The notes under the pieces are model-generated. The model worked only from the letters and a program-made list of their open reading frames with translations, searched no databases and had not been told where the DNA came from. A stretch of DNA of 64,000 nt from Anseongella ginsenosidimutans. GTDB lineage: Bacteria; Bacteroidota; Bacteroidia; Sphingobacteriales; Sphingobacteriaceae. Below, piece by piece: positions 23,763 through 59,462 of this stretch. Each line of letters begins with the position of its first letter. Position 1 is the stretch's first letter. The position numbers and the translations under genes were made by a program. The stretch spans positions 496,001 through 560,000 of the forward strand of contig NZ_CP042432.1 in NCBI RefSeq assembly GCF_008033235.1. The letters run 5' to 3'.

Positions 23763-24305
23763 ATGCAAATTACTCCAACGCCCCTTGAAGGTGTGCTGAT
23801 CTTTGAACCACGCGTTTTTCATGATTCACGCGGCTATTTCCTTGAAAGTTTCAACAAAAAAGTACTGAAAGAAAACAACCTGGCCTTTGATTTTGTGCAG
23901 GACAACCAATCCCTGTCCCAACAGAACACCCTGCGCGGGCTTCATTTCCAGGCGCCCCCCTACGCCCAGGCAAAACTGGTACGCGTTGCCCGGGGCGCCG
24001 TTCTGGACGTAGTGGTGGATATCCGGAAAACCTCCCCTACCTACGGCAAACATTTCAGCATTGTCCTTAGCGATGAAAACAATCTCCAACTCCTGATCCC
24101 GGAAGGATTCGCCCACGGCTTCCTGGTCATAGAGAACAACACGGTCTTCGTCTATAAATGTTCACAGTATTACCATAAGGAATCCGAGGGCGGCATTTTC
24201 TGGGCCGACAAACACCTGGCCATTGACTGGGGTACCGATAATCCTATTGTTTCGGAAAAAGACCAGCTTTTGCCGCAGTTCGATAGCTTTGAATCACCTT
24301 TTTAA
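23763..24305 (+). CDS. rfbC: dTDP-4-dehydrorhamnose 3,5-epimerase
   Basis: RmlC-type epimerase (180 residues), third step of dTDP-L-rhamnose synthesis. The cupin fold shows DSRGYFLESF, the catalytic His61 in LRGLHFQ, and Tyr131 in VYKCSQYY. The other rml genes are not in this window, so the pathway must be completed elsewhere or the enzyme works alone. Its stop runs straight into the repeat field at 24306. Confidence 0.95.
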   Translation: MQITPTPLEGVLIFEPRVFHDSRGYFLESFNKKVLKENNLAFDFVQDNQSLSQQNTLRGLHFQAPPYAQAKLVRVARGAVLDVVVDIRKTSPTYGKHFSIVLSDENNLQLLIPEGFAHGFLVIENNTVFVYKCSQYYHKESEGGIFWADKHLAIDWGTDNPIVSEKDQLLPQFDSFESPF

Positions 24306-24600
24306 ATTTTTAGTTCAAGGTTTAAAGTTCAAAGTTTGTAGTTTCAAGTTTTTAGTTTAAAGTTCAAAGTTCAACGTTTAGCGTTCAAGGCCTATAGTTT
24401 AAAGTTCAAAGTTTTTAAGTTTAGGGCTCAGAGTTCGGTTCAGGGTTCGAGGTCCGTCTGGTCGAGGTTTTTAGTTTCTTGTTTTTAGTTCAAGGTTTAA
24501 AGTTCAAGGTTCAACGTTTAGCGTTCAAGGCCTATAGTTTAAAGTTCAAGGTTCAACGTTTTTGATTTAAAAGCTTTTAGCTTGAGGGGCAAAGTTAACG
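24306..24600. repeat. Degenerate AGTTTAAAGTTCAA repeat field, left half
   Basis: About 300 bases made of variants of AGTTTAAAGTTCAAAGTT, read on the plus strand. Within it a 41-base stretch beginning GTTCAACGTTTAGCGTTCAA is present twice without mismatch, at 24369-24409 and 24509-24549. No gene is present. The stretch 24601-24770 between the two repeat fields holds nothing I recognise. Confidence 0.85.
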
Positions 24601-24769
24601 CTCTGAATAGACGGAAAGCTTGGCTTTGGGCTTGAATTCTACCTATCGCGCCGGGCAGCAACAATTGATACATGATCCTTCCACGGGCCTACGTCACTCG
24701 AATTCAAACCAATCGGCTGCGGAGCAACTTTAAACGAACGCAAGGCACCCCTAAAATCTGAACTTTAAA

Positions 24770-25110
24770 ACTTTAAACTTTAAACTGTTGCAAAACAACA
24801 TTGGAACTTTAAACTGTAAATGGTTGCGAAGCAACTTTGAAACGTTAAACTTAAACGGTTGCAAGCAACCCTGGAACCTCAAACTGTTGCGAAAAACTGT
24901 TGCGAAGCAACTTTGAAACATTAAACTTAAACGGTTGCGAAGCAACCCTGGAACCTCAAACTGTTGCGAAAAACTGTTGCGAAGCAACTTTGAAACTAAA
25001 AACTTTAAACTTTAAACTGTTGCGAAGCAACATTGGAACTTTAAACTGTTGCGAAGCAACAATGAAACATTAAACGGTTGCGAAGCAACCTAAAACTGTT
25101 GCGAAGCAAC
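24770..25110. repeat. GTTGCGAAGCAAC hairpin array, right half
   Basis: Eight exact copies of the 13-base palindrome GTTGCGAAGCAAC at 24823, 24899, 24934, 24976, 25019, 25048, 25077 and 25098, plus broken copies near 24787, 24857 and 24963. They are separated by 8 to 63 bases of AACTTTAAACT-like sequence, which is the reverse complement of the left field. The core GCGAAGC is known to form an unusually stable DNA mini-hairpin with a GAA loop. In several copies the flanking bases also pair (T/A or G/C). The last copies lie inside the end of the DUF2461 gene. Confidence 0.9.
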
Positions 25111-25785
25111 ATCAGTAGCTGAGCGCAGGAACTGGTTCAGGGGCGCAAGGGCGGCCCAGCCTGCGGCAACCGTGCGGGCAGCCTTGGGAGTGGTAAGCAC
25201 CATATCCTTGAAAGGATGGCTTACAGTGAAACTTTTCAGTTTAAGAAGGGCGATCTCGGGATGATCTTTGGGGTAACCTTGCGGGGCTGTTTTCAAGGCG
25301 TGTTCTTCGTCCAGCCCGCCGAAGTATTTACGGAACGAGTTTGCTTCCAGTAGTTGTTTGAGGGCTGTGCTGTTATAATCGATCTCCTGCCGGATAGCTT
25401 TGAGGTCATCCGCGGGCGGCATCCAGTAGCCCCCGGCGAGAAAGGAGGCCCCGGGCGTTATGTGCAGGTAATAGCCGGGCCCATTGCTGTTCCTGCCGGA
25501 AGGGCATAGCCATAAGCCCATATGGGTTTTGTAAGGGGTTTTGTCCTTGCTGAAACGGGTGTCCCTGTAAATGCGGAAGAGGCAATTTTTGGGAAGCAGG
25601 TCCGCCAGCAAGGGGTCGAAACGGGAAGCTTCCCGGATGAGTGCAGCGGTAAACGCTTCGACATCTTCTTTGGCCGCCAGGTAAGCCGTTTTATTCGTGT
25701 TGAACCATTCCCTGTTATTGTTTCGTGCGAGGTTCCCGAGAAAGTCCAGTGTACTATTTTGCAGCATGGTAGGTTCTGTCGGCAT
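25090..25785 (-). CDS. DUF2461 (TIGR02453) family protein
   Basis: A cytosolic protein of about 231 residues with the family landmarks NNREWFNTNKTAYLAAK, LFRIYRDTRFSKDKTPYKTH and GYYLHITPGASFLAGGYW. No reaction is known for the family. Start candidates are TTG 25797, ATG 25785 and ATG 25767; ATG 25785 is used here. Its last residues (DVASQQF) are encoded by a copy of the GTTGCGAAGCAAC repeat, so the original C-terminus has been replaced or extended. It overlaps the DUF983 gene and is the last gene of the respiratory cluster strand. Confidence 0.85.
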   Translation of the reverse strand: MPTEPTMLQNSTLDFLGNLARNNNREWFNTNKTAYLAAKEDVEAFTAALIREASRFDPLLADLLPKNCLFRIYRDTRFSKDKTPYKTHMGLWLCPSGRNSNGPGYYLHITPGASFLAGGYWMPPADDLKAIRQEIDYNSTALKQLLEANSFRKYFGGLDEEHALKTAPQGYPKDHPEIALLKLKSFTVSHPFKDMVLTTPKAARTVAAGWAALAPLNQFLRSATDVASQQF

Positions 25786-26149
25786 AAGAGCGGTCAAATT
25801 TTATTGGAGAGATCCAGTAAAGCATGAGTACGCGGGCATACCTGAAATTTATGGGCATCAGGAGAAATATTGCCGCCACCAGTATCCCGACATACGTCCA
25901 GGGTCCCGGATCATTGAGGATGAAGCTGGTAAGAATGGCCACGCCAACCATCTCGGCAACATTCAGGGCATAGCTGAAATACATGGCGCCCCAGAAAAAG
26001 CCGGGTTCTATCTCGAATTGAAGATTACATTCCGGGCAGCGCTTGTTCATCACGCTGAACTTCCGGTGAAAGGCAGGATGAGCGAACATTTTCCCCTGCC
26101 TGCAGCGGGGGCACCGGCACATTAAAATTGCTTCGGTTTTTGACACCAT
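25754..26149 (-). CDS. DUF983 zinc-ribbon membrane protein
   Basis: A 131-residue protein with an N-terminal zinc ribbon (CRCPRCRQGKMF, then KRCPECNLQFE) and two hydrophobic helices (YFSYALNVAEMVGVAILTSF; YVGILVAAIFLLMPINF). DUF983 proteins often accompany cytochrome oxidase genes. It ends inside the start of the DUF2461 gene and follows the small cysteine-containing membrane protein by 11 bases. The role is unknown. Confidence 0.88.
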   Translation of the reverse strand: MVSKTEAILMCRCPRCRQGKMFAHPAFHRKFSVMNKRCPECNLQFEIEPGFFWGAMYFSYALNVAEMVGVAILTSFILNDPGPWTYVGILVAAIFLLMPINFRYARVLMLYWISPIKFDRSYADRTYHAAK

Positions 26150-58906: not shown

Positions 58907-59111
58907 CCTTGCTATTTGGTACGCGCTATTAATTACTCTTTCCGCTTACGGTCCGTGTTTTATTCAAGGGGAAGAATACCGTTGGGGCTGCTGCTTTGGT
59001 CGCGGTTAGAGATTTTCTGCGAGTGGAAGTACAAGGTGCCGGAAATACATCCTCCGGTCAAGAGACAGGGAAATGGATCAAAGAAGGTTGCGGGGCAGGA
59101 CACATGACTTT

Positions 59112-59274
59112 GATTGCGAGATGGTCGCATGGCATGTGATTCCGGGAGGGCAGCATGCAAGGCTTTGATTACGGGGTGATCGCGTAGCATTGATTGCGGG
59201 AGGGCAGCGTGCAAGGCTTTAATCGCGAGGTGGTCGCGTGGCATTGATTGCGGGAGGGCAGCGTGCAAGGCTTT
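59112..59274. repeat. 54/55-bp tandem repeat, three copies
   Basis: Units at 59112-59166, 59167-59220 and 59221-59274, each ending GCAAGGCTTT. The unit contains the sequence GCGTGCAAGGCTTTGATTGC that also forms the outer arm of the nested palindromic element, so the array probably grew from that arm. Confidence 0.85.
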
Positions 59275-59357
59275 GATTGCCCGGAAAGAGCGATGTTGAT
59301 TCTTGCGCGGCGGCGCAAGAATCGCCTGAGCGATTCCGGGTAATCAAACCAGCACGC
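59261..59357. repeat. Nested palindromic element, copy 2 (inverted)
   Basis: Same plan as copy 1 in the other orientation: GCGTGC/GCACGC, TTTGATTGCCCG/CGGGTAATCAAA (59272-59283, 59337-59348) and a longer inner stem GATTCTTGCGC/GCGCAAGAATC (59298-59308, 59313-59323). Inner stem bases differ from copy 1 on both sides, and pairing is kept. Confidence 0.88.
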
Positions 59358-59360
59358 GGT

Positions 59361-59428
59361 GCGCAGGCAATTCCGGCCAATCAAACCTGCACACGCGCAG
59401 GCAATTCCGGCCAATCAAACCTGTACGC
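59361..59428. repeat. 34-bp tandem repeat, two copies
   Basis: Units 59361-59394 and 59395-59428 begin GCGCAGGCAATTCCGGCCAA and differ at only a few bases. They adjoin copy 2 of the palindromic element. Confidence 0.8.
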
Positions 59429-59462
59429 GCGCGAAGCCTCGCGACAGCCCCCTGCAACTAAA

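Follow-up and report, generated by a model that had tools for sequence, protein, structure and literature searches.

What is the array of short hairpins that lies between two convergent genes of Anseongella ginsenosidimutans, and how did it come to be there? A first-pass annotation of a 64,000-nt stretch of this genome (contig NZ_CP042432.1, positions 496,001 to 560,000; hereafter the window, numbered from its first letter) described eight copies of the 13-nt mini-hairpin GTTGCGAAGCAAC between convergent genes; these encode RfbC and a DUF2461 protein. We read this feature as a single locus of a lineage-specific repeat dispersed between genes, an inverted array of heptamers in which 13-nt mini-hairpins are embedded. 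Below, G000 denotes the genome that carries the window, G001, G002 and so on denote other genomes, and L numbers denote fetched loci.

Results

Hairpins and heptamers are dispersed in high copy number

The first-pass annotation held that an array with no further copy in the genome and none in related strains would be a local accident. G000 carries 66 exact copies of GTTGCGAAGCAAC (41 on the plus and 25 on the minus strand), which fall into 31 clusters by our own grouping, against 0 for the reversed control, and this rules out a local accident. The first half of that expectation is thus contradicted, while the second half agrees with what is found, since relatives hold 0 or 1 copy: three of 40 have one copy each. 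Across the phylum, 25 of 296 genomes sampled (G000 included) match, and the highest count outside G000 is 3.

The wider patterns behave similarly within G000: the any-loop form GTTGCNNNGCAAC has 93 sites (control 1), the heptamer pattern AACTTTRAACTTTRAAC has 104 (control 0), and runs of five AACYNNN units number 382 (control 11). Such five-unit AACY runs were matched in 65 of 148 genomes. In the class to which G000 belongs, with G000 left aside, they number 381 against 75 for the reverse-read control (21 genomes exceed their control and 2 fall below it); elsewhere in the phylum they are not clearly above control (867 versus 529; 20 genomes above, 28 below). Reverse-read control heptamers outnumber the real pattern in three genomes (G161, 65 versus 1; G172, 33 versus 0; G201, 83 versus 36), so other heptamer words are abundant there.

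Scanning a collection of genome contigs with an 18-mer returned nine loci, where we estimate that about 7.5 would arise by chance. Lag-7 periodicity around the 18-mer is 0.34–0.45 in five of them (L034 and L041, Fibrobacter; L036, Muribaculaceae; L038, SAR324; L042, Nitratifractor) and 0.23–0.28, that is, non-periodic, in the other four. The Nitratifractor genome (G046) lends weak support because its AACTNNN count (38) equals that of the control (38). In a Pseudanabaena record (L035:993-1010) the 18-mer sits within a longer, terminator-like inverted repeat that has no heptamers.

Two facing arms make up a composite array

All eight copies of GTTGCGAAGCAAC described at the window locus are present and exact (Table 1), and with up to two mismatches the window holds 12 matches where 1.37 are expected, a count reached in 0 of 100 dinucleotide shuffles. 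The extent originally given, 24823-25110, is too small: it is part of the right arm of a composite that runs from 24306 to 25110. Read in order, an opposite-facing arm of GTT-type heptamers (about 270 bp) begins directly 3' of the rfbC stop at 24305, followed by about 180 bp of unique filler and then by AACYNNN heptamers interspersed with 13-nt hairpins. The word AACTTTAAACT, with which the hairpins had been said to alternate, is one among many AACYNNN heptamers. Self-identity at lag 7 reaches 0.60 in the left arm; in the right arm, where heptamers and hairpins are mixed, it is 0.33–0.39 at lags 7, 8, 13, and 14. Part of the hairpin copy number is accounted for by a 77-bp unit repeated 2.9 times in tandem, and four broken hairpin copies are found in the same arm.

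The order of the two arms recurs at other loci. The GTT arm comes first in all 26 two-arm gaps of G000 (26/26), whose arm transitions comprise 29 from GTT to AAC and 4 in reverse, with one gap having a terminal GTT run. In what we call the Fibrobacter group (43 loci of two Fibrobacter metagenome-assembled genomes and relatives of one of them), 35 zones run GTT then AAC, 5 have AAC only, 5 have GTT only and 0 are reversed, so that 35 of 35 two-arm zones are GTT-first. Loci of other genomes gave 11 clusters in the order GTT then AAC, 0 reversed, and 65 with one arm; one of the 11 (L034) is already counted in the Fibrobacter group, leaving 10 further, and another (L091) seems by eye to span a short gene. 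These counts are not all independent because some Fibrobacter-group loci are orthologous.

We rejected foldback copying of one arm into the other: an arm's own partner was its best match in 0 of 26 loci in G000 and 0 of 21 in the Fibrobacter group, and arms of the same locus are no more alike than arms of different loci. One locus contrasts with this (L247:1499-1597), in that its two heptamer arms are by eye exact reverse complements for some 32 bp, separated by a loop of roughly 30 nt.

The first-pass annotation placed the array between convergent genes, and rfbC and the DUF2461 gene do converge, but hairpin copy 8 falls within the coding frame of DUF2461. Comparison with G001 shows that the last six residues of the protein are read from the array. 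Of the 17-kb respiratory strand at whose end the array had been placed, three families (COX3, UbiA, and DUF420) were confirmed; their genes lie right of the array, on the minus strand. Against Rfam, the best E value was 4.8 for the window and 0.36 for 13 Fibrobacter-group loci, all far below gathering scores. Elsewhere in the window there are tandem repeats of a 54-bp unit (3.2 copies, 59108-59280) and of a 34-bp unit (2.9 copies, 59333-59432).

Table 1. Features of the composite array and its flanking genes (window coordinates)
Feature	Coordinates	Strand	Evidence or remark
rfbC (dTDP-4-dehydrorhamnose 3,5-epimerase), left neighbour	23763..24305	+	Pfam PF00908, E 2.9e-71; array begins after stop
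Left arm, GTT(T/C)NNR (GTTNNNR) heptamers on the plus strand; AAC strand is minus	24306..24575	-	TRF periods 7, 14, 21, 42; lag-7 identity
Unique filler between arms, about 180 bp	24576..24755	.	Matches of 18-25 bp at most within fetched G000 stretches
Imperfect hairpin copy within filler	24716-24728		
Right arm, AACYNNN heptamers and mini-hairpins	24761..25110	+	
Degenerate hairpin copy GTTGCAAAACAAC	24787..24799	+	
77-bp higher-order tandem unit, 2.9 copies	24823..25055	+	
Hairpin copy 1	24823..24835	+	
Degenerate hairpin copy GTTGCAAGCAAC	24858..24869	+	
Truncated hairpin copy GTTGCGAAAAACT	24886..24898	+	
Hairpin copy 2	24899..24911	+	
Hairpin copy 3	24934..24946	+	
Truncated hairpin copy GTTGCGAAAAACT	24963..24975	+	
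Hairpin copy 4	24976..24988	+	
Hairpin copy 5	25019..25031	+	
Hairpin copy 6	25048..25060	+	
Hairpin copy 7	25077..25089	+	
Hairpin copy 8	25098..25110	+	Inside DUF2461 frame; encodes part of C-terminal VASQQF
DUF2461 gene, right neighbour	25090..25797	-	Pfam PF09365, E 1.6e-76; domain ends at residue 223 of 235

In the Fibrobacter group the mini-hairpin mostly keeps its loop while its stem varies

GNA loops closed by G-C pairs are described as extra stable in DNA, with 78 C given for GCGAAGC (PMC4686876), and the earlier statement that each copy contains GCGAAGC, a heptamer that folds as an exceptionally stable DNA hairpin, fits that description. A GNA loop closed by C-G is found in the hairpins of both G000 and the Fibrobacter group. 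On the GTTGC stem, the loops in G000 array gaps are GAA (66), GCA (8), AAA (7), AAG (1), and GCC (1). Hairpins of the form 5+3+5 number 178 in these gaps versus 55 in shuffles, with loop lengths of 2, 4, 5, 6, and 7 not raised; the excess stems come partly from the heptamers themselves (TTTAA-ACY-TTAAA). Directly before the hairpin stands AAC plus one base in 59 of the 66 G000 copies (AACT 26, AACC 25, AACA 4, AACG 4).

Pairing of the outer flanking bases had been read as covariation. Five of the eight window copies do pair there, but the signal is weak genome-wide (19 of 66 versus 12.9 expected, P 0.03), the base preceding the hairpin usually belongs to AACY, as its final letter, and among the 66 G000 copies the two further positions on each side pair no more often than expected. 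In the Fibrobacter group, hairpins directly after AACT have a loop of three in 40 cases, with one case among lengths 2, 4, and 5, and use 10 distinct stems; the loops are GAA (25), GTA (6), AAA (4), GCA (2), and three others once each, so that 33 of 40 are GNA. These hairpins show stem covariation with a mostly kept loop, and we infer that their structure matters as DNA. In a comparison of DNA and RNA loop energies, the ViennaRNA parameters give the triloops of interest equal energy and do not separate them.

Arrays lie next to gene ends

Position relative to genes was analyzed in 36 G000 stretches fetched around repeats, using gaps of at least 60 nt and genes from our own codon-pair open reading frame caller. 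The stretches were chosen around repeats, which inflates array frequencies, so the frequencies can be used only to compare gap classes with one another. Of the convergent gaps, 16 of 33 hold an array, versus 32 of 117 tandem gaps (P 0.03), in support of the enrichment between convergent genes that the first-pass annotation had suggested testing, and 0 of 42 divergent gaps (P 1e-6 versus the rest); under a looser criterion, one divergent gap has a single three-unit run. Outside called genes lie 65 of the 66 G000 hairpins, the exception being the last window copy. Of 20 one-arm arrays in G000 tandem gaps, 17 are placed and oriented as at the 3' end of a gene (P 0.003). Among the 32 Fibrobacter-group zones that have a neighbour on each side, 27 are 41 nt or less from a stop codon (10 edge zones were not counted).

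Abutting stop codons and favouring convergent gaps are what might be expected of a bidirectional 3'-end element, in which facing arms and hairpins would terminate transcripts arriving from either side or shield the 3' ends of mRNA. Such an element would also fit with two arrays common to two species that are more conserved than their flanks, with a two-arm array (L140) that folds well as RNA (z -3.4), and with published RNA-seq of Xac, in which transcript starts and stops are commoner in G-quadruplex-forming heptamer repeats than in control repeats (PMC4692102). However, no U-tract follows the window hairpins; heptamers do, which is not the form of an intrinsic terminator. Folding of the window array is no more than moderate (z -1.9 for RNA, -2.4 for DNA), and terminator-like sites make up 0–9% across gap classes, too rare for comparison. 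Many gaps also do without an array: 85 of the 117 tandem gaps, 17 of the 33 convergent ones and, within the Fibrobacter group, 23 of 25 that are orthologous. We regard a functional 3'-end element as a serious but unlikely explanation.

Spacers and transposase searches

A masked comparison of 192 G000 gaps showed that spacers are mostly unshared. Array gaps 3470896 and 3480738 share 125 bp at 87%, 4218981 and 1835283 share 85 bp at 67% (also found in an array-free gap), and 1511825 and 3470896 share 29 bp; beyond these pairs, none among the arrays matched at E 0.01. A different intergenic repeat, of about 85–105 bp at 67–78% identity, is shared by gaps 4218981, 2721184, and 1835283 of G000 contig C1. 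Because same-locus arms are no more alike than others and masked spacers are mostly unshared, the G000 copies are not one intact transposon.

They might still be non-autonomous elements of REPIN or MITE (miniature inverted-repeat transposable element) kind, mobilized in trans by an enzyme for which AACY and the single-stranded hairpin are the recognition signal. Dispersed high copy number, empty orthologous sites, a fixed word at the hairpin foot with facing copies as in repetitive extragenic palindromes (REPs), and the near-fixed core length in the Fibrobacter group all speak for this, and genes for the transposase family Y1_Tnp (PF01797) occur in array-bearing G047 and G050. Yet the same search that matched 5 of 14 control genomes gave 0 matches in G000; among 18 genomes Y1_Tnp was found in 7, and in none of array-bearing G041, G045, G060, and G065. 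None of eight Fibrobacter-group Y1 loci has an AACT hairpin, and one has a single heptamer doublet. On these results we rejected a RAYT/REPIN identity. In addition, BLAST of the array against plasmid and phage collections, with the low-complexity filter on, gave no match, and inspection by eye of two pairs of empty and filled sites revealed no recognizable target-site duplication. On balance, mobility of this kind seems to us improbable.

Arrays are gained and lost

In G001, of the same genus, rfbC (77% identical) and the DUF2461 gene (73%) are also convergent, with 16 nt between their stop codons versus 784 nt in G000, and the 16-nt sequence was not found within the G000 gap. The DUF2461 protein ends in FLRAAIQ in G001 and in FLRSATD plus the array-read VASQQF in G000. 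Gain of the array in the G000 lineage is the simpler reading, the alternative being loss in G001. Across loci L273, L276, L279, and L281, an OmpA-family gene stands between rfbC and the DUF2461 gene in three members of the family (G002, G006, and G011; assigned by Pfam on the G006 copy) and is absent there in G001 and G000. We considered the array as a remnant of this gene and found no convincing match to it in the window gap.

At the L138 locus, an array is present in 2 of 25 genomes, and the other 23 orthologous gaps are by eye free of heptamers; their flank matches lie 19–107 bp apart in 22 genomes and 296 bp apart in one. Comparing G047 with G050 (135 kb versus 137 kb), one G050 array has no detected G047 counterpart though diverged pieces align, and two short zones have no ortholog within the fetched part. 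At the L206/L218 pair the arrays are strongly different. Arrays are thus gained and lost, yet some are tightly kept (see below), in a small number of comparisons.

Addition of repeats at the two 3' ends of a chromosome break followed by end joining, a telomere-like filling that would give head-to-head arrays, accords with the strict polarity, the arms that are not mutual copies, the unique filler, and the missing G001 gap sequence, but we consider it very improbable. Against it stand the shared cores in the Fibrobacter group and the sequence that G050 retains beside its array, which by eye resembles the array-free G047 gap.

Discussion

The closest known repeats are inverted, intergenic and heptameric, and occur in Xanthomonas and Nostoc (PMC4692102). 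These are GGGAATC and GGGGA(C/T)T heptamers, mixed with conserved positions, which are mostly intergenic, lie near stop codons or overlap the ends of open reading frames, and include 70 and 75 cases of two convergently oriented sites; they are rarer between divergent genes, vary among close relatives, and have no established function. The G000 arrays share with them the 7-nt period, the intergenic position, the facing orientation of paired sites, and the avoidance of gaps between divergent genes; for Xanthomonas, heptamer repeats paired convergently have been published before. They differ in composition, since the Xanthomonas and Nostoc heptamers are G-rich and form G-quadruplexes whereas the AACY/GTT units are by eye without G-runs, and in the embedded 13-nt GNA mini-hairpins, which the consulted sections of the paper do not mention.

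A second likeness is to the direct repeats of TAACTGA known from Beggiatoaceae, Cyanobacteria, and five Bacteroidetes (PMC4679880). In tandem, TAACTGA equals AACTGAT and so AACTNNN, and it is intergenic, as in G000; in the BOGUAY genome it lies mostly just upstream of start codons and points to them, like the AAC arm. No hairpin modules are mentioned for it in the consulted passages. REPs and REPINs (PMC3116915, PMC2817692) are likewise short extragenic palindromes in many copies with a fixed 5' foot word and facing copies, but they have a RAYT (Y1) transposase, a GTAG or GTGG foot, and two-hairpin units, where G000 has no Y1 match, AACY, and heptamer arrays. Membership among REPs or REPINs fails because neither the transposase nor the foot word agrees.

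Elhai and others reportedly described, in 2008, small dispersed repeats in Nostoc that form hairpin-like inserts within tandem heptamers; we liken them to the present arrays by description only. A literature search, thin on subscription journals, found no description of heptamers with embedded GNA hairpins.

As to origin, we lean, by a small measure, toward growth and spread at the DNA level through slippage and template switching. At the repeated AACY words a nascent strand would slip, or change to another template, in 7-nt steps, and the hairpin formed by the AAC strand would be the place where it stalls or switches. Local duplications such as the 77-bp unit would then add hairpin copies, and arrays would settle at sites that tolerate insertion, chiefly just after stop codons. 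Any effect on transcript 3' ends is possible and would be secondary.

Several observations weigh against slippage and template switching. Slippage alone leaves the fixed head-to-head polarity unexplained, and this is the observation it covers least well. Two arrays shared by G047 and G050 exceed the conservation of their flanks (94/94 with flanks at 93.2%, and 78/79 with flanks at 84.8%), which suggests constraint. The Fibrobacter-group cores, near-fixed in length and more alike than shuffles, look like a copied element. Four of 32 Fibrobacter-group zones lie in gaps that our own caller classed as divergent, so promoter avoidance is established for G000 alone. The GNA loop of G000 may be inherited rather than selected, because one stem and loop dominates there. 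Finally, no enzyme was identified.

A bolder but improbable reading takes AACY heptamers and GNA mini-hairpins as a strand-polar DNA grammar across distant phyla, found in the G000 lineage, in relatives of Fibrobacter, and at one locus each in records of Muribaculaceae, SAR324, and Nitratifractor. An enzyme would write it, either by lengthening 3' ends or by recognizing AACY together with a single-stranded hairpin. On this reading both the head-to-head order of the arms and the covariation of the stems would be accounted for.

We read these as lineage-specific heptamer arrays that probably grow and spread at the DNA level. Heptamer repeats beside genes have so far been noticed piecemeal, as with TAACTGA and GGGAATC. 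Their shared polarity, the AACY anchor word, and GNA mini-hairpins that are exchangeable and whose stems covary suggest that one process at the DNA level is common to them, and the pairs of empty and filled sites in G001/G000 and G047/G050 make the mechanism of these arrays testable.
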